This document shows positions 11,014 to 53,706 of a stretch of 64,000 nt of DNA, one piece after another; the first letter of the stretch is position 1; each line of letters opens with the position of its first letter. The DNA is from Burkholderia ambifaria (lineage in GTDB: Bacteria; Pseudomonadota; Gammaproteobacteria; Burkholderiales; Burkholderiaceae). Under the pieces are notes generated by a model. It was not told the origin of the DNA. It saw only the letters and a program-made list of their open reading frames with translations, and searched no databases. The translations under genes were made by a program, and so were the position numbers. The stretch is taken from positions 6,997 to 70,996 of the forward strand of contig NZ_LKPJ01000001.1 of the NCBI RefSeq assembly GCF_001443045.1, given 5' to 3'.

Positions 11014-12837
11014 ATGTGCGGAATCGTCGGAGCAAGCGGCCTGAAGAATCAGGTGCCGCAACTGGTCAATGCGCTGAGCCGGCTCGAGTATCGCGGCTAC
11101 GATTCGTGCGGCATCGCCGTGCTGCGTGATGGCCGCCTGCGCAGCGAACGCACGTTGCGACGCGTGGCGGACCTGCAGGACCGCGTGCTGACGCTCGGTC
11201 TCGAAGCGCAGACCTGCATCGCGCACACGCGCTGGGCGACGCACGGCGCGCCGTCGGAAATGAACGCGCACCCGATCATGTCGGGCGACACGATCGCGGT
11301 CGTGCACAACGGGATCATCGAAAACCATGAGGCATTGCGCGCCGAACTGCGCGAGGGCGGCTATACGTTTCGCGGCGAAACCGACACCGAAGTGATCGCG
11401 CACCTGATCCACAGCGTGTATCGCGACGACCTGTTCGATGCCGTCATCCGCGCGGTCAAGCGGCTGCACGGCGCGTATGCGATCGCCGTGCTGAGCGCGC
11501 GCGAACCGCAGCGGCTCGTCGCCGCGCGCGCCGGCTCGCCGCTCGTGATCGGCATCGGCGCGGACCAGAACTATCTCGCGTCCGACTGCGCGGCACTCGG
11601 CGACCTGACCGACCGCTTCGTCTACCTGGAAGACGGCGACGTCGCGCTGATCACGCCGGAGCGCATCGACGTCGTCGACTCGGTCGGATGCGAAGCCAGG
11701 CGCCCGCTGTGCGAGGTCAAGGCGCGCGACGACGACGCCGCGCTCGGCCCGTACCAGCACTTCATGCAGAAGGAGATCTTCGAGCAGCCGAAGGCGATCG
11801 CCGCCACGATCGACGGCATCGACACGATCTCGCCCGCGCTGTTCGGCGGCAACGAAAGCACCCGTGCATTGTTGTCGAGAACCCGGAGCGTGCTGCTGCT
11901 CGGCTGCGGCACCAGCTACTACGCGGGCCTGACGGCGAAATACTGGCTCGAGGGCATCGCGGGCATCCCCGCACAAGTCGAGATCGCGAGCGAGTACCGC
12001 TATCGCGATACCGTGCCCGATCCGCGCACGCTCGTCGTCGGCATTTCGCAGTCCGGCGAGACCGCCGACACGATCGGCGCGATCGAGCGCGCGCGCGGGA
12101 TGGGACAGGACCTGTCGATGGCGATCTGCAACGTCGCGACCAGCTCGATCGCGCGCACGGCACCGCTCTGCTTCCTGACGCGCGCCGGCATCGAGCTCGG
12201 CGTCGCGTCGACCAAGGCGTTCACGACGCAGCTCGTCGCGCTGTTCCTGCTGACGCTGGCGCTTGCGCAGCAGCGCGGCCGGCTCGACGCGGCGCATGTG
12301 GCAATGCACCTGAAGAAGCTGCACGAACTGCCGGAGCGCATCGGCCACGCACTCGCGCTCGAAACGCAGATCATGGGCTGGGCCGCAAAGTTCGCGCGCA
12401 CCGAGAACGCGCTGTTCCTCGGCCGCGGCATTCACTATCCGATCGCGCTGGAAGGTGCGCTGAAGCTCAAGGAAGTGTCGTACATCCATGCGGAAGGCTA
12501 TCCGGCCGGCGAGCTGAAGCATGGCCCGCTCGCGCTCGTCACGAGCGCGATGCCGGTCGTCACGATCGCACCGGACGACCGCCTGTTCCAGAAGCTGAAG
12601 TCCAACATGGCCGAGGTGCGCGCACGCGGCGGACGGCTGTACGTGCTCGCGGGCAATCATCTCGAGATCGACACCGACCGCGACACGCACCTGATCCGCG
12701 TGCGCGAATCGGGCGACGCGCTGTCGCCGATCGTCAACGTGATCCCGCTGCAGTTGCTCGCGTATCACGTCGGCTGCGCGCGCGGCGCCGACGTCGACAA
12801 GCCGCGCAACCTCGCGAAATCGGTCACCGTCGAATGA
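11014..12837 (+). CDS. glmS: GlmS, glutamine-fructose-6-phosphate aminotransferase
   Basis: A 607-residue enzyme, the usual family length. It makes glucosamine-6-phosphate from fructose-6-phosphate and glutamine, the first step to UDP-GlcNAc, the PNAG precursor. The N-terminal class II glutaminase domain begins MCGIVGA, with the nucleophile Cys exposed after Met removal; HTRWATHG and EYRGYDS are typical. Two SIS sugar-isomerase domains follow, with LGCGTSYYAG and SQSGETADT, and the C-terminus AKSVTVE is family-typical. Its place after pgaD suggests a second copy, besides the housekeeping one, that feeds polymer synthesis. No glmS ribozyme was seen upstream. Confidence 0.95.
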   Translation: MCGIVGASGLKNQVPQLVNALSRLEYRGYDSCGIAVLRDGRLRSERTLRRVADLQDRVLTLGLEAQTCIAHTRWATHGAPSEMNAHPIMSGDTIAVVHNGIIENHEALRAELREGGYTFRGETDTEVIAHLIHSVYRDDLFDAVIRAVKRLHGAYAIAVLSAREPQRLVAARAGSPLVIGIGADQNYLASDCAALGDLTDRFVYLEDGDVALITPERIDVVDSVGCEARRPLCEVKARDDDAALGPYQHFMQKEIFEQPKAIAATIDGIDTISPALFGGNESTRALLSRTRSVLLLGCGTSYYAGLTAKYWLEGIAGIPAQVEIASEYRYRDTVPDPRTLVVGISQSGETADTIGAIERARGMGQDLSMAICNVATSSIARTAPLCFLTRAGIELGVASTKAFTTQLVALFLLTLALAQQRGRLDAAHVAMHLKKLHELPERIGHALALETQIMGWAAKFARTENALFLGRGIHYPIALEGALKLKEVSYIHAEGYPAGELKHGPLALVTSAMPVVTIAPDDRLFQKLKSNMAEVRARGGRLYVLAGNHLEIDTDRDTHLIRVRESGDALSPIVNVIPLQLLAYHVGCARGADVDKPRNLAKSVTVE

Positions 12838-14135
12838 TGCGACGGCCGTTCGTGGCGCACGCATTTTCCATGCGCACACACGCGGCCCGGCGTGCCGCCG
12901 CGTGGCGCGTCGCAACCGCGCTGTGCGGCGCGTGCGGTGCCGTCGCCACGCCGTCGTACACGTGCGCCGGCGCACCGGTCGTGCATACGGTCGCCGTGCA
13001 GGAACCCGCGGCGCCACCGGAAAGCGGCGACCCGCGGCGCTTCATGCACGGGATCGGCGTGGCCGACGCCGGCGGCGGGCGGCGCTGGGTGTTCTTCAGC
13101 AGTTCGGGCATCGTGCCGCACGGCGCGCTGCGCAACGGCAACTGGCCGCATGACGTGTATGTCGGCCAGTGGCTGCCGGGCAAGCCGCGCTTGCTGCGCG
13201 TCCATACGTTCATCAGCCGCCCGGAAGCGCAGGAACCCGTATCGATCGCGCAGAATCCGCGCGGCGACATCTTCGTCACGTTCGAGGACGGCTGGAACAC
13301 GCCGCAGGTGGTCAGCCAGCGATACGGCGTCTATCGGCGCGACCTGAAGCCGATCAAGCCCTACCCGAACGATGTCGAGGCGGGCGGCCACTCGGGGCAC
13401 GTCGCCGCGGTGGGCGAACGCTTCGTCGTGTTCTATTCCGCAGACTGGATCGACGGCGGCGGCGTCGACAACCTCGGCACCGGCGACGGCGTCTACGTGA
13501 AAACCTACGATGCCGAAGGACGCGTGCTGAACCATGTGTCGGTCGCGCCGCACCGCCGCGAGTGGTGGCCCGTGGTCGCGGGCTCGCCGCACCGCGCGCT
13601 GCTGGTCTGGCAGAAATACATCGAAGGCAGCACGGACGCGACGCTCGAATACGCGATGTTCGATCCGGTCACGGCGAAGCTCGACACGCTCGGGCCGCTG
13701 AACGACGCGATCCAGTACTACGTGTATTCGGCGGCCTATGTGCCGGCGGTCGACCGTTTCATCGTCGTCGCGACGACCGCTGACCATCATGGCGTCGCGA
13801 TGCTGATCGATCCGGACGGGCGTCGCCTCGCCACGCTCGACTGCCTGCCGGCGTCGGTGCGCGAGTCCGGGATCGGCGTCGACGGCACGCATGCGTATGT
13901 GCCGACCCGCGACGGGCGGCTTCTGACGCTGGCGCTTTCGCCAACGGGCATGTCGGTGAGCGGCGTGCAGCGCTCGCCGGTTCCGTGGGGCGCGACCGGC
14001 ATCGCCGGGTTCCCGGCACGCGACGGGGCGATGCATTTCGTATCGCTGACACCGTCCGGGACGCGCGAAGCGGATTTTGACACCGCACGGGAAGCGCCAT
14101 TGCCGAAGGCCGACGCGCAGTGTCCGACACATTGA
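12834..14135 (+). CDS. Predicted secreted protein of unknown function, last gene of PNAG locus
   Basis: A 433-residue protein whose ATG overlaps the glmS stop (ATGA), so it belongs to the same transcript. Candidate starts are 12834, 12837 and 12870. From the third, the sequence reads MRTHAARRAAAWRVATALCG, a plausible signal peptide. The mature part is rich in Trp, Gly and beta-type blades (HGIGVADAGGGRRWVFFSSSG, DIFVTFEDGW, ALLVWQKY). It looks like a beta-propeller or sialidase-like fold, but I do not recognise a family or catalytic residues. Position suggests a role in binding or modifying the polymer outside the cytoplasm. Confidence 0.75.
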   Translation: MMRRPFVAHAFSMRTHAARRAAAWRVATALCGACGAVATPSYTCAGAPVVHTVAVQEPAAPPESGDPRRFMHGIGVADAGGGRRWVFFSSSGIVPHGALRNGNWPHDVYVGQWLPGKPRLLRVHTFISRPEAQEPVSIAQNPRGDIFVTFEDGWNTPQVVSQRYGVYRRDLKPIKPYPNDVEAGGHSGHVAAVGERFVVFYSADWIDGGGVDNLGTGDGVYVKTYDAEGRVLNHVSVAPHRREWWPVVAGSPHRALLVWQKYIEGSTDATLEYAMFDPVTAKLDTLGPLNDAIQYYVYSAAYVPAVDRFIVVATTADHHGVAMLIDPDGRRLATLDCLPASVRESGIGVDGTHAYVPTRDGRLLTLALSPTGMSVSGVQRSPVPWGATGIAGFPARDGAMHFVSLTPSGTREADFDTAREAPLPKADAQCPTH

Positions 14136-36205: not shown

Positions 36206-36571
36206 TCAGCCCGCGAGCTTCTTCAGCGCGTCGAGCACCGCGTCGCCCTTGAACGGCTTCACGATCCAGCCCTTCACGCCGGCGGCCTTGCCGCGCTCCT
36301 TCATCGCCGGGCTGCTTTCGGTCGTCAGCATCACGACGTTGACCGACGTGTTCGCCAGTTCCCCGCGGATCTTCTCGACCATCGTCAGGCCGTCCATGTT
36401 CGGCATGTTCACGTCGCTGATCACGAGGCGCACGCCGGGCGTCGCCTTGAGCTTCGCGAGCCCGTCCTTGCCGTCCACCGCCGTCGCGACGTCGAGCCCG
36501 TGATTGCGCAGGAAACCCGCGACTTCATCGCGCACCGTGCCCGAATCGTCGACCACCAGAATCTTTGCCAT
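36206..36571 (-). CDS. CheY-type single-domain response regulator
   Basis: A 121-residue receiver domain. Acidic pocket and phospho-site are MAKILVVDDSGTVR and VISDVNMPNMDG; the switch Thr is in VVMLTTESS and the Lys in GWIVKPFKGD. It has no output domain, so it works like CheY, by binding a partner. The start MAKILVV is used, with GGGGAAG upstream; an ATG 12 codons earlier runs into the previous gene's stop. It is the last gene of a five-gene operon with a membrane kinase and two CheX/CheC-type phosphatases, which presumably phosphorylate and dephosphorylate it. Confidence 0.9.
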   Translation of the reverse strand: MAKILVVDDSGTVRDEVAGFLRNHGLDVATAVDGKDGLAKLKATPGVRLVISDVNMPNMDGLTMVEKIRGELANTSVNVVMLTTESSPAMKERGKAAGVKGWIVKPFKGDAVLDALKKLAG

Positions 36572-36607
36572 GCCATCTTCCCCTTTCGTTGTTGCTGACT
36601 TCAACAT

Positions 36608-37567
36608 TCAAAACAGTTCGAGTTCGCCCGATTCGACCATCGGCCCCACGTCCTGCACCGATTCGCGGAAATCCTCCGGCGACCAGCTCAGGCTGAACAC
36701 GAAACGCTGGTCGATCCGCACCGACCGCCCCGATGCCGGGTCGGTCATCCGGTACTTGAAACAGAGCTGCGGACAGTCGCCGCCGAACGAAATGAACTTC
36801 TGCTTGTGATTGACGACGAGCGGCACCTGCACCGGATGGCGTGCAAGCGCCTCGGCGTCGCCGAGATAGCGGTTCTTGAACGCGCCCCACACGAGATTGG
36901 TCAACTCGCCGAGCACGCTGTTCACGTCGCGGAAATCGGCTGCGCGCGCGTCGTCGCGCGTGCCGCCGATCATGTCGAGCAGCGGCTGCTCGCTCGTCTG
37001 CAGCAGCATGTAGCCGCGGCACCAGGCGCTTTCCAGCGCGATCAGGCTGAACACCTCGCCGAAGATGATCTGGTCGCGGACGATGCACGGCGTGTCCCGC
37101 TCGATCGCGAGGCCCGGGAACAGGCTGTCGAGCCGCGCCTCGGTGATCTCCGCGATGCCGCGCACCAGCGCGTTCGGGTAGTCGCGGCCGAACAGGTATT
37201 CATCGATCGCGTGCTTGAGCGGCGTCAGGTCGTCGGCGACGTAGGCCGCGCATGCGACGCGCGCGAGCGCATCGGGCAGCCCGTCGCGCGACGCGTCGGA
37301 CGCGCGGCGCAGGATGATCGGCAGCTCCGGCCGCAGCGCATCGATCTGCGTCGCGATGATCGCGCTCTCGTCCGGCGAGCCGCCGTAGTCCTCGGCGAGC
37401 AGGATCGCGCCGAGATCGATGTTCGAGCGCAGCACCTTCAGCAGCCGGTTGCGCCGCACGGTCAGCCCGACCAGGTTGTGCTCGTCGCAGAAGCGCTTGA
37501 TCGTCGCGGCGTGCGCACGGCTGTCGTCGAGCACGAGCACCTTGCTGACGGGTTGGTCTACGGTCAT
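36608..37567 (-). CDS. Receiver-like plus CheX/CheC-type phosphatase protein, GELELF tail
   Basis: A 319-residue protein. The first 125 residues resemble a receiver domain (KVLVLDDSRAHAATIKRF) with a poorly conserved phospho-acceptor region (AILLAEDYGG). The C-terminal half (about 150-310) is CheX/CheC-like: NSVLGELTNLVWGAF carries the phosphatase pattern S-x3-E-x2-N with E221 and N224. Proteins of this type dephosphorylate CheY. It ends in SGELELF, the same tail as the neighbouring CheX-like protein. It sits 36 bases before cheY and 22 bases after the next gene. Its probable partner is that CheY. Confidence 0.78.
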   Translation of the reverse strand: MTVDQPVSKVLVLDDSRAHAATIKRFCDEHNLVGLTVRRNRLLKVLRSNIDLGAILLAEDYGGSPDESAIIATQIDALRPELPIILRRASDASRDGLPDALARVACAAYVADDLTPLKHAIDEYLFGRDYPNALVRGIAEITEARLDSLFPGLAIERDTPCIVRDQIIFGEVFSLIALESAWCRGYMLLQTSEQPLLDMIGGTRDDARAADFRDVNSVLGELTNLVWGAFKNRYLGDAEALARHPVQVPLVVNHKQKFISFGGDCPQLCFKYRMTDPASGRSVRIDQRFVFSLSWSPEDFRESVQDVGPMVESGELELF

Positions 37568-37589
37568 CTCGGGAAGTCCTCGGAATCGG

Positions 37590-38186
37590 TCAAAACAGTT
37601 CGAGCTCGCCGCCCGTGTCCACGCTCGCCACTTCCGGCACGTGGAAATCGACCGGCGCGTTCGCGCACACGCACAGCGTCGCGCCGATCCGCACGTCGCC
37701 GCCGAGCGTCACGTCGTATGCGGCCACGTGATCGGGGTTCAGCGCCGGCAGGTAGTCGATGCTCGCGCCGCGCAGCAGGTAAGGCGTCGACATCCCGAGA
37801 TCGGGAAACGGCGCGGTCAGCGCCTGGTTGATCGCGCCGCAGCACAGGTTCGCGACTTCCATGAACGCTTCGGGCAGCGGCCGCTGCGTGCTCGCGCGAG
37901 GCGCCGCCGCGGCGACATGACGGCGCGTCGGCTCGTCGTCACGAAAGCGCAGCGCGAGCAGCAGCCGGAAATGCAGTGCCGAGATCGTCAGTACCGCGAC
38001 GTGCTCGGGCACCTTCGGCGCCGTGTACGACTTCGTGCGCGACTGCATGCGTGACGGGTCGTGCGACGCGTCGTGCGCATCGCCCGCGGCCGGCCGGATC
38101 TCGCACGCGCCGCCGGACGCGAGCCGCGTGCGCGCCGCATCGAAGAAGATCCGCTCGAAACCAGCCCGGGCCTGAGCACTGATCAC
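37590..38186 (-). CDS. CheX/CheC-type phosphatase-like protein, GELELF tail
   Basis: A 198-residue protein that starts at GTG (VISAQARAGFERIFF). The GTGA overlaps the MCP-tip gene stop, with GAAGGAG upstream. The phosphatase-like motif is AFMEVANLCCGAIN: E110 and N113 match the E-x2-N of CheX/CheC, while the Ser/Asp that precedes it is replaced. The rest is a CheC-like alpha/beta fold with PDHVAAYDVTLGGDVRIGAT. It ends TGGELELF. It may act on CheY or bind the same partner as the 36608 protein through the common tail. Confidence 0.75.
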   Translation of the reverse strand: MISAQARAGFERIFFDAARTRLASGGACEIRPAAGDAHDASHDPSRMQSRTKSYTAPKVPEHVAVLTISALHFRLLLALRFRDDEPTRRHVAAAAPRASTQRPLPEAFMEVANLCCGAINQALTAPFPDLGMSTPYLLRGASIDYLPALNPDHVAAYDVTLGGDVRIGATLCVCANAPVDFHVPEVASVDTGGELELF

Positions 38187-38929
38187 GCCGCCGCTCCTTC
38201 GAGCCGCGCGTGCAGCTGCCCGGCCAGCGTTTCGACCGTCGCCAGCGCGGCCGTGATCATCTTGCCGCCGGCCTGGATGTCCTGGAACGTCGCGGCCGTC
38301 ACGAGATCGTTGCGGTTCAGGCTGTCGCGATAGCTGTTCGACAGTTGCTGCGAGCGCGCGGCGAGCCCGCGCACCTCGCTCGCGACGATCGAGAAGCCGC
38401 GGCCGGCCGTGCCCGCGCGCGCGGCTTCGATCGACGCATTCAGCGACACGATCGACACGTGCGCGACGATCGCCGATAGCTCCTGGTTCTTCGTGCGCAT
38501 GTCCTGGTTCTGCGTGGTCAGCGAGATCATCTGCTCGTGCCAGCGCTCGAACGTGCCGGCCAGCCCGCGCAACCGCGCCGCTTCGCCGGCGAGCTTCGTC
38601 GCATGCTGCGACAATGCGGCGCGCTCGGTCGCGAGCGCCTGCAGCGCGTCGCGCTGCTCGCCCGTGCCGGCCGCCTCGCGCGCCAGCGTTTCCTCGAGCT
38701 CCGCTTCGCGGCGCGCCCATGCCTGCGCCGCTTCGGCAAGCGCGGCGACGGCTTCGTCGGCCCGCGCATCGGCCGTGCCGAGCGCATCGCGCAACGCATC
38801 CGCTTCGCGCATCATCGCGGCGACGAGCCGCGCTCGCGCGACGCGACACACGATCGCGGCGATCGCCGCAACCACCAGGCCGCCCGCCAGCGCGGCGCCG
38901 ATCGGAATCATCCACGCCTGCACGATCAC
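38183..38929 (-). CDS. Membrane-anchored MCP signalling-tip protein, no sensor domain
   Basis: A 248-residue protein starting at GTG within a GTGA overlap with the kinase gene. One transmembrane segment (about 7-30) is followed by a long Ala/Glu/Arg coiled coil (35-150). A methyl-accepting-chemotaxis-protein hairpin tip follows at about 152-195: VSLNASIEAARAGTAGRGFS then EVRGLAARS. There is no periplasmic or PAS sensor, no HAMP, and only a short return arm, so it is not an ordinary receptor. The tip normally binds CheW and CheA P5, neither of which is encoded in this operon. Confidence 0.82.
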   Translation of the reverse strand: MIVQAWMIPIGAALAGGLVVAAIAAIVCRVARARLVAAMMREADALRDALGTADARADEAVAALAEAAQAWARREAELEETLAREAAGTGEQRDALQALATERAALSQHATKLAGEAARLRGLAGTFERWHEQMISLTTQNQDMRTKNQELSAIVAHVSIVSLNASIEAARAGTAGRGFSIVASEVRGLAARSQQLSNSYRDSLNRNDLVTAATFQDIQAGGKMITAALATVETLAGQLHARLEGAAA

Positions 38930-41316
38930 ACCACCGCGTCGACGTTCGCGATGCCGGCGCGTGCGTGCGGCTCGGCGTCGTGCGCGGTACCGTTCGCAGC
39001 GAAACGCACGGGCAACGACACGATCGTCTCGAACGCGCGATACGGCGAGCCGACGCGATCGTCGGTGAAGCGCAGCGCGATGTCGCCGCCGTCGCGCTTC
39101 AGGAAGTTGCGCACCGCGTCCATCCCGACGCCGCGCCCCGACACCTCGGTCACCGCACGCGCGGTCGAGAAGCCCGGACGGAAGATCAGCTCGGCCACCG
39201 CCTCGTCGGTCAGCGCGGCTTCGTTGCCTGCGTCGATCCAGCCGCGCTCGCGCGCGATCCCGCGAATCCGGTCGAGCGCGAGGCCGCGGCCGTCGTCGCC
39301 GAGCACGAAGCGCAGCGCACCATCCTCGACGTCGACCGCGATGTCGATCTTGCCGGCCGGCGCCTTGCCGGCCGCGCGACGCTCGTCGGACGTCTCGATC
39401 CCGTGGTCGATCGCGTTGCGCAGCAGGTGCATGAACACGTTCTTCAGCGTCGCGCCGATCTCGCTGCGCACGCGATGACCGTTGCTGTCGATATGCACGA
39501 CGGGCGCCGGCTTGCCGAGTTCGGCCGCGAGCGACGGCAGCGACTCGATCACGCCGCCCAGCGCATCGCCGATGCCCTGCGTGCCGAACTGGCTCAGCAG
39601 GCGGCGCACCGAGTCGCGTGCCGCGTGCCAGTCGCCCGCGTTCGCCGGATCGGCGCCATCGAGCATGCGCAGGCCCTCGCTGATATGCACGCGCTCGACC
39701 ATCAGGTAGTCGGCGCCGCCGTGCTGCGCAGGCTCGCCGTGGCGGCCGAGCGTGACCGCATTGATCGTCGCATAGTGATCGACCGCCTCGCGCACGCGGG
39801 CCAGGTCGTCCATCAGCGCATCGCGGTTCCACTCGGGGCCGCCGTCCGCGCGGCGCAGCGCTTCGTACGCCTGCTCCGCTTCATGCACGATGTTGGTCAG
39901 ATACTGCAGGCTGTACGTGCGCGCATTGCCCTTGATCGTGTGCATGTTGCGGAACAGCGCCGCGACGATCGAATGATCCGCGCGTTCGTGCTGGCGGATC
40001 ATCCGCTCGTTCTCGCTGAGAAAGCCCTTCGCGCTGTGCACGAAATCGTGGAACTTGTCCTGGCTGATCGACAAGATCTCGCCGATCATCTCGAGGCGGC
40101 GCTGCTGCTCCCCGGCCTGCGCGGTCAGCTCACGGATCTCGGTCACGTCGCGCACGCACAGCATCAGGCGCACGACCGTGTCGGTCTCGTCGGTGATCGC
40201 CGACCAGCTCAGGTCGAGCCACTTCTCGCGGCCGTCCGGCATGCGCTTCGCGACTTCGTTGACGAGCAGGTGCTCGTTGAACGCGAAGTTCATGCTGTCC
40301 TCGCCGAGGCACGCATGCACGGCCGCATCGACCTGCGAGCGCGCGTCGGCGCCGATGCTCGAATCGTCGAACACGAGCGTCATCAGGTCGCGCCCGGCGA
40401 TGTCGCTCGTCTCGAAGATGCGCTCGAGGTAAGCCGAGTACTCCGCATGCACGACGCCGCCCTCGACGACGGTCAGGATCCCCTGCTGCATGTTCTGCAG
40501 CATCGCCTGGATGTCGGCCGTCTTCTGCTTCAGTTGCGCGGCGTTCTCCTGGATCTTCTCGATCATCCCGTTGAACGCGACGATCGAATGGCCGATCTCG
40601 TCCATCCGGCCCACCGGCACGCGACGCGTGAAATCCTGGCTCGCCGCGATCTCGCTCATCGCCGTCTGCATCCCGATCAGCGGGCGCGTGATCTGCCGGT
40701 ACAGCACAAAACCGAGCGCGGTCAGCAGCACGACGACCGTGCCCGCGACAGCCGCGATCGCGGTCGCCGTCGTTGCGAGCATGCCGTTCAGCGCGCCGAT
40801 CGCGTCGTCCTTCTGGCGGTTCTTCTCGACGCGCAGCGTATCGACGATGCTCTCGAGTTCGTCGCGATACTGCGCGACGTTCGCGAACAGGTACGCCTGC
40901 GCCATCTCCGGCTTCCCGTCAGCCTTCATCTTCACGGTATCGTCGATCGCCGCGAAGTAGTTCGCGGCGCTGTCCTTCGCCTGCGCGACGAGGCCCTGCT
41001 GCGCCTGCCCGACCGCCGATCCGGCCTGCGCGTCGAGCGCCGCGCGCAGGGCGGCCTGTTTTGCCTTCAGCTCGTCGCGCGCCTGCGCGGCGGTGTTCGC
41101 GTCGGGCGCGTACACCAGCGTCATCGTCGCGATCTGGATGTTCTTCACGTCGGCGACGAGATCGGCGGACGCGAGCGCGCTCGGCACGATTCCCTGGGTA
41201 ACCTGACGCACCTCGGTCGCGCTCTTGCGCGTCTGGTACACGGCGTACACGCCGATCGCGGACAGCGCGAAAAACGTCAGGACGACTAGCAGCGTAATGC
41301 GATGACGGATGGTCAT
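38926..41316 (-). CDS. Receptor-kinase fusion: 4HB sensor, HAMP, PAS, Hpt, HATPase (CheA-like without P5)
   Basis: A 796-residue membrane protein. TM1 is about 8-26; a periplasmic four-helix-bundle sensor is about 30-180; TM2 is about 184-206; HAMP is 207-260; a PAS domain is about 270-395. An Hpt domain has H459 in NMHTIKGNARTYS. The CheA-type ATPase domain has the N-box HLLRNAIDHGIE (N634, H638), G1 DDGRGL (674-679) and G2 GRGVGMDAV (727-735). The CheA P5/CheW-like domain is missing; the protein ends soon after the ATPase. It thus joins receptor and kinase in one chain. It is the first operon gene; GGGGAG precedes the ATG. Confidence 0.88.
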   Translation of the reverse strand: MTIRHRITLLVVLTFFALSAIGVYAVYQTRKSATEVRQVTQGIVPSALASADLVADVKNIQIATMTLVYAPDANTAAQARDELKAKQAALRAALDAQAGSAVGQAQQGLVAQAKDSAANYFAAIDDTVKMKADGKPEMAQAYLFANVAQYRDELESIVDTLRVEKNRQKDDAIGALNGMLATTATAIAAVAGTVVVLLTALGFVLYRQITRPLIGMQTAMSEIAASQDFTRRVPVGRMDEIGHSIVAFNGMIEKIQENAAQLKQKTADIQAMLQNMQQGILTVVEGGVVHAEYSAYLERIFETSDIAGRDLMTLVFDDSSIGADARSQVDAAVHACLGEDSMNFAFNEHLLVNEVAKRMPDGREKWLDLSWSAITDETDTVVRLMLCVRDVTEIRELTAQAGEQQRRLEMIGEILSISQDKFHDFVHSAKGFLSENERMIRQHERADHSIVAALFRNMHTIKGNARTYSLQYLTNIVHEAEQAYEALRRADGGPEWNRDALMDDLARVREAVDHYATINAVTLGRHGEPAQHGGADYLMVERVHISEGLRMLDGADPANAGDWHAARDSVRRLLSQFGTQGIGDALGGVIESLPSLAAELGKPAPVVHIDSNGHRVRSEIGATLKNVFMHLLRNAIDHGIETSDERRAAGKAPAGKIDIAVDVEDGALRFVLGDDGRGLALDRIRGIARERGWIDAGNEAALTDEAVAELIFRPGFSTARAVTEVSGRGVGMDAVRNFLKRDGGDIALRFTDDRVGSPYRAFETIVSLPVRFAANGTAHDAEPHARAGIANVDAVV

Positions 41317-41799
41317 GAGTACAGCTCCCCGCAGCGATCCGGCTTCGATCGCCGTTTGGCCGATTGAAAGAATATGAGCGCCGAATTATCGGGGATGGTG
41401 TATGACCGTCCGATGACTGAAAATCAATCGGTCATTGAGGAAATCGCAATGGTTTATTGCGATGGGAAAATCCTAAAGTTTTTCTCGAATCGGCCGTTAA
41501 CCCTTGGCCCATGCGGTTCGGCTGGGCTTGCCGGCAGCCTGCAACAAACGAATCCGGATATTCATTCTTTTAATCATGATCCGGCCATTCAATCCGGTCG
41601 AATACCGGTAAAACGTTTGCGCATTATCTTTGAAGCGGATCGGTCATGCAGCCCTTTACGCACGATAGCGAATTCAATGACGCGCGACGTCTCACCGGCC
41701 CGGTCATCGCCGCTCACGGATCGAGCGCGATACCGCCCCTGCGAGACCAGCCGCTCGCGATTGCCATCCGCGCCGATTGCCACATGACTTGCACTGCGG
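41317..41799. other. AT-rich intergenic region, promoter of the chemosensory operon
   Basis: About 480 bases between the receptor-kinase and vapC. Composition is mixed and AT-rich at 41360-41480 and 41560-41640. No gene, tRNA or clear terminator was recognised. The chemosensory operon promoter must lie in the left half. Confidence 0.5.
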
Positions 41800-42207
41800 T
41801 CAGTTGTCGCGCGCCGCCGCGAGCCAATCCTCGACCTGTAGCTCCGAGACCCGCTCAAACTCGCGCGTGTTGTGCGTGACAAGCACCAGGCGCCGCGCTC
41901 GCGCCTGTCCTGCGATCAATGCATCGTATGGCCCGATCGGTGTTCCCACCGCGGCCAGTTGCGCACGAATTTCACCGGCATGCTGCGCATCTTCCGCATC
42001 GAACGACACGACCTCGAACTGAAGCCCCTCGACGCGTGCCAGATTCGCTGCCGCTCTCTGACTCTTGTACGCCCCGGAATAGAGTTCATGCGCGACGATC
42101 GCGGGAATTCCGAAATCCGCAGGTTGATGTCTACGCAATCGGGCCAACATGGCCTGTTCGCCTTTCAGAATGGCGATTACCGCATGGGTATCCAGCAGAA
42201 ACTTCAT
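41800..42207 (-). CDS. vapC: VapC PIN-domain toxin
   Basis: A 135-residue PIN-domain endoribonuclease: D6 in FLLDTHAVIAIL, the Glu in VAHELYSG, Asp in IGPYDALIAGQA and the late THNTREF segment. All core acidic residues are present. VapC toxins cleave specific tRNAs or rRNA. Its ATG overlaps the antitoxin stop (ATGA), the usual coupling. It is unlike the PIN toxin at 19801 in sequence and in partner type. Confidence 0.9.
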   Translation of the reverse strand: MKFLLDTHAVIAILKGEQAMLARLRRHQPADFGIPAIVAHELYSGAYKSQRAAANLARVEGLQFEVVSFDAEDAQHAGEIRAQLAAVGTPIGPYDALIAGQARARRLVLVTHNTREFERVSELQVEDWLAAARDN

Positions 42208-42446
42208 TCAAACACGTCCAGTCCCGGACGCTCTTGAGCGGCAGGCTCGGTTGCCGCGGCGGCCTCGAAATCGGCGTCAACCGGGCCGATCAACGGTGTC
42301 AGCCATGCCCAGTCTTGCGGCACCGGTTCGAGAATGACAGACGCGCCGTGCCGACGAATCCGGACCTCCGTTGTATCGAAGCGGAAATCCTTCGGCAAGC
42401 GCACGGCCTGCGATCCACCATGCTTGAAAAGCTTGGCAGTCTCCAT
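42204..42446 (-). CDS. vapB: VapB antitoxin (AbrB/SpoVT-like)
   Basis: An 80-residue antitoxin. The swapped-hairpin DNA-binding domain is KLFKHGGSQAVRLPKDFRF, then EVRIRRHGASVILEP. The C-terminal 35 residues (acidic, Ala-rich) should bind VapC. The ribosome site GGGAG lies almost against the ATG, an unusually short spacing that may keep expression low. Two TATCTA repeats upstream at 42461 and 42474 are candidate operator half-sites. Confidence 0.88.
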   Translation of the reverse strand: METAKLFKHGGSQAVRLPKDFRFDTTEVRIRRHGASVILEPVPQDWAWLTPLIGPVDADFEAAAATEPAAQERPGLDVFE

Positions 42447-52313: not shown

Positions 52314-52701
52314 ACGACTGAACGCGTGCCTGCCGTCGTACGGCCGGCACGCAAGCGCCGCGCACGCGCCCCCGGGCGCTCGTCCCTTCCTGTCGAAACG
52401 AACGCACCGGCATGGCGCGCCGGCGGCTTTTTCCGCACCGCCGCATGGCCGCGTGCGCGGTTTTTCGCCGCGCGGACGGCAAGAATGCCGCCCGGCCATC
52501 GAAGAAAGGGGCGGAAACGACACGATGCGCAATTTTTTCGATTGCCGCCGCTCGCGCCGCATGACAGCATGCGGGCGTCGCCAATCGAAAAGAATTCCGT
52601 GCCGTCCCGGCCGCCGATGCCATTCGGCGGCGCCGCCCGGCACTGCCTTCCATGAACCCGGCCCACCTCCAACACTACGAACCGACCGGAGTATCCCGCT
52701 T
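52314..52701. other. Intergenic region upstream of wspF
   Basis: About 390 bases. A T/A-rich stretch near 52530-52560 may be the promoter for wspF. Frames here lack ribosome sites. There is no visible remnant of other Wsp genes. Confidence 0.5.
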
Positions 52702-53706
52702 GTGAACATCGGCATCGTCAACGACCTCCCGCTTGCCGTCGAGGCGATGCGCCGTGTGATCGCGCGCCGGCCCGAGCACCGCGTGCTGTGGGTCGCGACC
52801 GACGGCGCGCAGGCCGTCGAACTGTGCGCCGCGCAACCGCCCGACGTCGTGCTGATGGACCTGATCATGCCGAAGTTCGACGGGATCGAGGCAACGCGGC
52901 GGATCATGCGTTCGAGCCGCCCGTGCGCGATCCTGATCGTGACGAGCTGCATCGGCATGAACGCATGGCGCGTGTTCGAAGCGATGGGCGCCGGCGCGCT
53001 CGACGCGGTCGACACGCCGCGCCTCGGCGAAGGCGAAGCAGGCGACACCGCCCGGCTGCTGCTCGCGAAGATCGACCAGATCGGCCGGCTGCTCGAGGCG
53101 CCCGGCGGCATGCGCGCGGCCGGCACGACTGCACGCGCGGGCGGCGGCCCGCTGATCGCGATCGGCGCGTCTGCCGGCGGCCCCGGCGCGCTCGCGTCGA
53201 TCCTCGGCAGCCTGCCGGCCGACTTCAGCGCGCCGATCGTGATCGTCCAGCACGTCGATCGCGCATTCGCCGAAGGCATGGCGCAATGGCTCGACGGCCA
53301 GACGCCGCTGAGCGTGCGCGTCGCGCGCGAAGGCGACCGTCCGCAGCCGGGCGTCGCGCTGCTCGCGGCGACCGACGATCACCTGCGCATCACGCGCGCC
53401 GGCACGCTCGAATACACGCGCGAGCCGGCCGCCACGCCGTACCGGCCGTCGGTCGACGTGTTCTTCAACAGCCTGACCGAGCACTGGCCGGGCCGCGTGA
53501 TCGGCGTGCTGCTGACCGGCATGGGACGCGACGGCGCGATCGGCCTGAAGGCCCTGCGGATGAAGGGCTACCACACGATCGCGCAGGACGAGGCGACCAG
53601 CGCCGTCTACGGGATGCCGAAAGCCGCCGCGACGCTCGGCGCGGCACGCGCGATCCTGCCGCTCGAGCGCATCGCGGGCGAACTGGCGGCGCTCGCACGG
53701 ATCTGA
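52702..53706 (+). CDS. wspF: WspF/CheB-type methylesterase
   Basis: A 334-residue CheB-family protein that starts at GTG (VNIGIVNDLPLAVEAMRRVI). The receiver has phospho-D53 in VVLMDLIMPKFDG. The methylesterase domain has the triad S157 in GASAGGPGAL, H184 in QHVD and D277 in GMGRDGA. The N-terminus and FEAMGAGALDAVDTP match Wsp-type WspF rather than flagellar CheB. WspF demethylates the WspA receptor and turns the Wsp system down. Here wspR follows after 59 bases, but wspABCDE are absent from the window. Confidence 0.9.
   Translation: MNIGIVNDLPLAVEAMRRVIARRPEHRVLWVATDGAQAVELCAAQPPDVVLMDLIMPKFDGIEATRRIMRSSRPCAILIVTSCIGMNAWRVFEAMGAGALDAVDTPRLGEGEAGDTARLLLAKIDQIGRLLEAPGGMRAAGTTARAGGGPLIAIGASAGGPGALASILGSLPADFSAPIVIVQHVDRAFAEGMAQWLDGQTPLSVRVAREGDRPQPGVALLAATDDHLRITRAGTLEYTREPAATPYRPSVDVFFNSLTEHWPGRVIGVLLTGMGRDGAIGLKALRMKGYHTIAQDEATSAVYGMPKAAATLGAARAILPLERIAGELAALARI

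Follow-up and report, generated by a model that had tools for sequence, protein, structure and literature searches.

What can chemosensory parts do together in an operon that has no CheW? The question is raised by five genes in a 64,000-nucleotide stretch of Burkholderia ambifaria DNA (assembly GCF_001443045.1, contig NZ_LKPJ01000001.1, positions 6,997 to 70,996; hereafter the window), all on the minus strand and spanning positions 36206-41316, which encode a receptor kinase (KIN), a membrane-anchored tip of a methyl-accepting chemotaxis protein (MCP), two CheX-like proteins (CX1 and RCX) and a CheY (Table 1). A first-pass annotation, made from the sequence alone, had described them as a compact, chemosensory-derived operon with two GTGA gene overlaps, and both descriptions held: Pfam matches above cut-off were 4HB_MCP_1, HAMP, Hpt and HATPase_c in KIN, MCPsignal in the 248-residue tip protein, CheX in RCX and Response_reg in CheY, whilst the overlaps, each of 4 nt, lie at 38929-38926 (KIN/MCP) and 38186-38183 (MCP/CX1). 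The annotation could match the operon to no named system, and open PubMed Central (PMC) papers likewise yielded none recognisable as describing it or its gene order. The operon is nevertheless a real, conserved variant of chemosensory signalling. We propose, with about evenly balanced confidence, that it may be a CheW-independent chemosensory-type phosphorelay in which interchangeable kinases feed an output unit that hardly varies.

A receptor joined to a CheA-like catalytic unit

In the kinase a 4HB sensor lies between two transmembrane (TM) helices and is followed by HAMP, a PAS-like region (PAS match below the Pfam cut-off), Hpt (P1, with His459), a P3-like region and a CheA-type ATPase (P4). 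His459, which had been put forward as the phospho-histidine site, is invariant in alignments of 24 and of 43 kinases. The profile of the 43 kinases, chosen from 75 kinases of named loci with the window's included, matched Escherichia coli CheA at E 9e-56 in two stretches, residues 9-107 (P1) and 281-494, the second of which we take from the domain limits to be most of P3 plus P4; the tentative P3 assignment follows from the start of this alignment at residue 281, within the usual limits of P3, and H-kinase_dim was absent from the Pfam matches. No match to P2 was found in KIN. The profile match reaches query residue 748 and stops after P4, before P5, leaving 48 residues after the ATPase match. 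A P5/CheW domain was looked for in the 38926-41316 protein and none was detected, nor was there a CheW match in the 43 kinases by Pfam or by the genome search, in agreement with the earlier description of a receptor fused to a kinase without P5. The same holds across the family, where the C-terminal remainder after the GRGVGM box is 48-99 residues in 95 of 98 kinases (the other three do not have the exact motif and were left out of the measurement) versus 190 in the genome's chemotaxis CheA. Catalytic-unit motifs recur throughout the 98 kinases (MHT[IV]KGN in 90, RNxxDHG in 98, DDG[RK]G in 90, GRGVGM in 95). Pfam domains in the 43 kinases were constant for Hpt (43) and the ATPase (HATPase_c, 43) and varied in the remainder (HAMP 33, 4HB 15, 7TM-DISM 5, GAF 1), and we read these varied sensor domains as sensor exchange.

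KIN shares with CheA (classes F1-F17, Tfp and ACF) the order of P1 Hpt, P3-like and P4 ATPase, but differs in having no P5/CheW and no P2 match, and in carrying a receptor (4HB or 7TM, HAMP, PAS-like) at its N terminus. According to a CheA survey, the CheW domain is present in 100% of CheA and serves, together with the ATPase, to recognise them (PMC10782961); since this domain is missing, the kinase is by that criterion not a CheA, though built from CheA parts, and its family falls outside the survey.

The earlier statement that the operon has no CheW, CheR or CheB also stands. There is no CheW in the window, the genome search having given five CheW matches that all lie outside its span; the genome's CheR as query found no match in the window; and a receiver-CheB gene at 52453-53706 on the plus strand is 11 kb off and not part of the operon.

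Table 1 Features of the operon and its upstream region, in window positions.
Feature	Position	Strand	Evidence
Receptor kinase KIN, 796 aa	38926..41316	-	Pfam; E. coli CheA profile match; H459 invariant; TM helices by eye
Membrane-anchored MCP tip, 248 aa	38183..38929	-	MCPsignal E 2e-15; alignments; TM by eye
CX1, 198 aa, CheX-like, ExxN site, C-terminal GELELF	37590..38186	-	Weak CheX matches; E110/N113 invariant; tail
RCX, 319 aa	36608..37567	-	CheX over cut-off; solved CheC/CheX structures E 6e-8; tail pattern 94/94
CheY, 133 aa; conserved part 36571-36206	36206..36607	-	Response_reg E 2e-23; 41% identity to genome's chemotaxis CheY
ELELF-stop coding 18-mer, CX1 end	37590..37607	-	Genome-wide sequence search
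ELELF-stop coding 18-mer, RCX end	36608..36625	-	Genome-wide sequence search
GTCAT-N6-GTCAT then CCCCGATAAT, candidate promoter or regulatory site of the operon	41385..41420, approximate	-	20/20 footprint loci
Sigma-28 (FliA)-type site TAAAGTTT-N11-GCCGTTA	41474..41499	+	25/30 loci; 3 exact genome sites

Conservation and co-divergence of the gene set

The cassette is not local to the genome of the window: many swimming Beta- and Gammaproteobacteria have it in conserved form. Kinase-positive genomes numbered 92 of 200 in the family, 15 of 300 in the order and 5 of 398 in the phylum, all of which are lower bounds owing to strict E-value limits and the scoring of 2-5 candidates in most genomes. 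Two RCX peptide patterns, run against GTDB species genomes, turned up 310 stretches that code for a relative of RCX, and the best 80 of these, several of them close kin, were taken as loci; they include Herbaspirillum, Chromobacterium, Aquabacterium, Rhodoferax, Propionivibrio, Methylococcales and others. With 23 further loci chosen by the kinase (20 genomes, 3 plasmid records) the dataset comprised 103 loci. All five genes were found in 86 of them, eight were without RCX alone and nine were without another gene or more, some of these nine ending at contig ends and one (L055) having a broken cheY. RCX is present in the 80 loci by construction, and in 14 of the 23 chosen by the kinase. Two loci, L090 and L121, contain an RCX-like gene but, over about 17 kb, none of its four companions. 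At L055 (Ideonella dechloratans) cheY appears to be interrupted, at about 11590-13333, by an element that carries an integrase, and a diversity-generating retroelement lies nearby.

The gene order is KIN-MCP-CX1-RCX-CheY in 60 loci and KIN-RCX-CheY-MCP-CX1 in 16, with rarer orders in the rest. Among the module genes MCP and CX1 are neighbours wherever both are detected, as are RCX and CheY, whilst the kinase lies upstream, downstream or reversed, and is present twice in L103 and L112. Beyond these five no gene is a widespread companion: when flanking open-reading frames (ORFs) were clustered, the largest cluster covered 10 of 103 loci. Using the genome's own CheW, CheR, CheB and CheZ as queries, the flanks of the 103 loci contained no homologue of CheW, CheR or CheZ (ORFs of at least 60 aa, E ≤ 1e-5); the CheB query, which includes a receiver, matched ten module CheYs and five other ORFs. 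The annotation had called the design reduced, which now looks doubtful, because the module is a constant gene set rather than a decayed array.

Across 86 loci the pairwise divergences of MCP, CX1, RCX and CheY are correlated with one another (0.64-0.75), whereas those of the kinase correlate with the other four genes at 0.14-0.26 over its whole length (86 loci) and at 0.09-0.35 over its P1-P3-P4 part (83 loci; the better-scoring kinase was entered for two-kinase loci). Relatedness of the loci inflates all of these values, therefore what counts is the contrast between them and not their absolute height. The MCP tip groups with the phosphatase-like proteins and CheY, whilst the kinase looks exchangeable, owing to its weak co-divergence, a reading that fits its varied sensors.

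The MCP tip, the tailed CheX-like proteins and CheY

The annotation was right in recognising a membrane-anchored MCP tip without a sensor. The protein consists of one N-terminal TM helix, a coiled coil, the hairpin NASIEAARAG and a strongly conserved C-terminal NDLxTxxTFQDxQA, and its profile matches solved MCPs at E 4e-20. It shares the hairpin tip and an above-cut-off MCPsignal domain with methyl-accepting chemotaxis proteins, but has no sensor, a shortened coiled coil and the NDLxTxxTFQDxQA stretch. It has also lost the FQTN stretch of array receptors, which we take to be their trimer-contact motif (within FQTNxLALNA; positions follow what we assume to be Tsr numbering). At the F373 position Phe never occurs in 100 rows (R 33, K 32, N 14, Q 10, A 6, S 3, E 1, G 1), Thr remains at T375 in 3, and at the N376 position 81 rows have V or I and a single row, from an ordinary receptor gene beside L073, has Asn. 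Other tip residues are retained: N381, E385 and G390 in 100 of 100 rows, R388 in 99, and V or I at 398 in all 100.

The FQDxQA part of this stretch resembles FQDLTGQ of CheZ, a motif in which residues have catalytic roles and which is present in the genome's own CheZ (pattern search). A CheZ-like activity of the tip was considered and rejected: none of the 100 rows has Gln at position Asp+4, where 91 have Gly or Ser, therefore no such activity is claimed.

Two CheX/CheC-type proteins had also been proposed, a claim that stands for RCX and in weaker form for CX1. Pfam CheX was found in 14 of 14 RCX members. The CX1 of the window falls below the cut-off (E 0.028), its relatives match at E ≤ 0.1 in 17 of 24 cases (best 4.4e-5), the CX1 profile matches a solved CheX at E 0.04, and E110 and N113 of its ExxN site are invariant in two alignments. 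Across the loci ExxN is present in 94 of 94 RCX and 93 of 99 CX1. The ca. 150 extra N-terminal residues of RCX may form a degenerate receiver-like half; no Pfam receiver matched in any of the 14 members. CX1 and RCX are barely alike (hhalign probability 48%, E 2e-4, with the tail contributing part), yet they end in the same way. The C-terminal pattern G-x-[LMI]-[ED]-[LMF]-F occurs in 95 of 99 CX1 and 94 of 94 RCX, and the exact GELELF end in 59 and 71 respectively, including both proteins of the window; the four CX1 exceptions end in GELQML (two), GELEFL and ELELFQ. In the 8.1-Mb genome the ELELF-stop coding sequence occurs twice, at the ends of CX1 and RCX, versus none for the reversed control. 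The retention of a terminal peptide on two such diverged proteins points to one docking partner.

Relative to the CheX/CheC-type CheY phosphatases, the module shares the CheX domain of RCX and the ExxN motif of both proteins, and differs in having two diverged copies, one with the putative receiver-like half, and a common GELELF-type tail. The C-terminal peptide of CheZ tethers that phosphatase to its substrate CheY, and the tails may embody the same idea by analogy, though fold and peptide differ (the genome's CheZ ends LLASLGF) and a binding of GELELF to CheY is putative. Another CheC-like gene of the genome (a weak CheX match on contig C56) ends without the tail; it stands between a receiver gene and a PAS-GGDEF-like gene, in the order receiver, CheC-like, PAS-GGDEF-like. 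The genome's canonical CheA (locus L161, 6449-8719, plus strand) ends AELAIF, faintly resembling the tail.

CheY is the slowest-evolving of the five (median pairwise identity 0.76, vs. 0.34-0.51), with a conserved start MAKILVVDD at 36571 and the motif D[VW]NMP in 97 of 98 sequences. Mean conservation is 0.96 in beta5 and 0.90 in alpha4, a pattern to be expected if the protein keeps a conserved face for a partner.

Flagellar association, proposed mechanism and alternatives

Almost every genome with the kinase or the module that was searched for the flagellar switch protein FliM encodes it. In the family draw FliM was present in 152 of 200 genomes and in 92 of 92 with the kinase, for which the p-value of 3e-16 is heavily confounded by phylogeny; in the order draw the figures were 199 of 300 and 15 of 15 (hypergeometric p 0.0018), and outside the family 12 of 12 kinase genomes had FliM (hypergeometric p 0.007). 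Among 49 module genomes, sampled from 50 of the 80 loci of the RCX scan, FliM was found in 48, the single miss (L154) being a metagenome assembly of unknown completeness. The suggestion that the system is perhaps unrelated to motility is not supported by these counts, and the first-pass interpretation as a whole is therefore partly supported.

The upstream region is near the flagellar regulon. GTCAT-N6-GTCAT and CGATAAT lie upstream of the kinase, in the direction of the operon, in all 20 loci of the footprint. Of 30 Burkholderiaceae loci, 25 have a sigma-28-type site at a distance of 155-168 nt from the kinase start, among them 20 of 20 of the window's genus, its own copy included. The exact pattern has three sites in the genome, versus ten for the reversed-pattern control; one precedes an flgM-like gene (followed, by eye, by flgN) and one a PAS-GGDEF-like gene, and the site near the kinase is credible as a sigma-28 site solely for its conservation and the flgM match. 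Control of the operon by FliA was considered and rejected, since the conserved site reads the opposite way and the reversed control outnumbered it by 10 to 3. A CCGATAA/T box occurs within 300 nt upstream of the kinase in 7 of 71 other loci, compared with 2.5% of random stretches (binomial p 0.002), at scattered positions and with no -35 box. Just upstream of the kinase region, two small overlapping genes at 41800-42446 on the minus strand resemble, by eye, a VapC/VapB-type toxin-antitoxin pair. Elsewhere in the window, which has no CheW, the receiver-CheB gene is followed by a receiver-GGDEF gene (about 53.7-54.9 kb, plus strand), and the two resemble a wspF-wspR pair.

In the phosphorelay that we propose, the membrane kinase would use its own periplasmic or 7TM domain as sensor, with HAMP and PAS relaying control to the CheA-like P1-P3-P4 unit; as the link between receptor and kinase is covalent, P5/CheW would not be needed. 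The conserved sites suggest that His459 takes phosphate and hands it to the Asp of the module CheY, and co-occurrence with FliM suggests that phosphorylated CheY (CheY~P) would probably act on the flagellar motor or on some other target linked to the flagellum. CX1 and RCX, with their ExxN sites, are predicted to dephosphorylate CheY, and the GELELF-type tail is a candidate docking peptide by which both would bind the same partner, in the simplest case CheY or the MCP tip. The tip itself would no longer be a receptor of the kinase and would instead serve the CheX/CheY unit as membrane scaffold or as regulator, a role suggested by its co-divergence, the fixed MCP-CX1 adjacency and the loss of FQTN. 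The kinase may accordingly be described as an exchangeable input, and MCP, CX1, RCX and CheY as a nearly constant output unit.

Several observations weigh against this proposal. Phylogeny confounds the link with FliM, a protein that is common in any case, the sigma-28-type site near the kinase is directed away from the operon, and CX1 is by sequence only weakly a CheX. RCX is dispensable, being missing from 9 of the 23 loci chosen without it. The kinase is not fully independent of the other genes, because its correlations, weak as they are, are reached in just 0-2 of 200 permutations. CheW is encoded elsewhere in the genome in 49 of the 49 module genomes searched, so help in trans could come from canonical arrays, and the MCP tip keeps N381, E385 and R388. 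Finally, the module CheY has Trp where the genome's canonical CheY has Tyr, a position that we take to be Tyr106 of E. coli CheY.

Other explanations were weighed as well. With CheW in all 49 module genomes, a tip that matches solved MCPs and keeps N381, E385, R388, G390 and V/I at 398 (99-100 of 100 rows) might use CheW in trans to join the cell's canonical chemoreceptor array, from inside which the module would then modulate ordinary chemotaxis; the replacement of the FQTN motif, of which we assume the contact role and in which Phe never occurs at the F373 position, the tip having no sensor domain, and flanks with no CheR or CheW homologue at the 103 loci argue otherwise, and we regard this as improbable. 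Slightly better placed, though still unlikely, is an output other than motility (biofilm, cyclic di-GMP or gene control) through protein contacts of CheY, in the manner of ACF systems. This would suit a CheY so unlike motor CheY (41% identity, Trp for Tyr), the GGDEF/EAL genes near some loci, including an EAL-type gene that recurs in five, and the CheB and receiver-GGDEF genes at least 11 kb away in the window. It sits poorly with the near-complete co-occurrence with FliM and with the lack of a widely recurring sixth gene (at most 10 of 103 loci). GGDEF/EAL genes are also not regular neighbours: 20 motif ORFs were found in 1.04 Mb of flank, five of them overlapping the module in other frames, so that a link to cyclic di-GMP through neighbours is unsupported as a rule (a motif search, with no formal background).

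The least probable of the alternatives, to our minds, is that the module CheY and CheX-like proteins serve solely to draw off phosphate or to adjust the pool of canonical CheY, and have no target that is theirs alone. A single-domain CheY flanked by two phosphatase-like proteins would fit such a sink, and a phosphate-sink CheY, CheY1, is described for Comamonas (PMC6600141). The module CheY has, however, its own kinase, and is the most conserved of the five proteins, with beta5 and alpha4 well conserved. Returning to the CheW-independent phosphorelay, its most far-reaching form would be a class of systems in which exchangeable receptor-kinases act on a nearly constant output unit, where a former receptor tip has become a membrane scaffold for two tail-tagged CheX phosphatases around their own flagellum-directed CheY; this is a tentative picture, to which we give appreciably less than an even chance.

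Wsp, Pil-Chp and other ACF/Tfp systems likewise combine chemosensory components and a response regulator output within one operon, but they retain CheA with P5, CheW and mostly CheR and CheB, which the module does not. So far the view has been that CheA does not come without its CheW-like P5, and that the tips of chemoreceptors are components of CheA/CheW arrays. The GELELF-type tail offers a simple, mutable handle for finding what gathers the phosphatases, and a widespread operon that keeps the CheA catalytic unit and a receptor tip without P5/CheW suggests a route from the array to direct sensor-kinase signalling.

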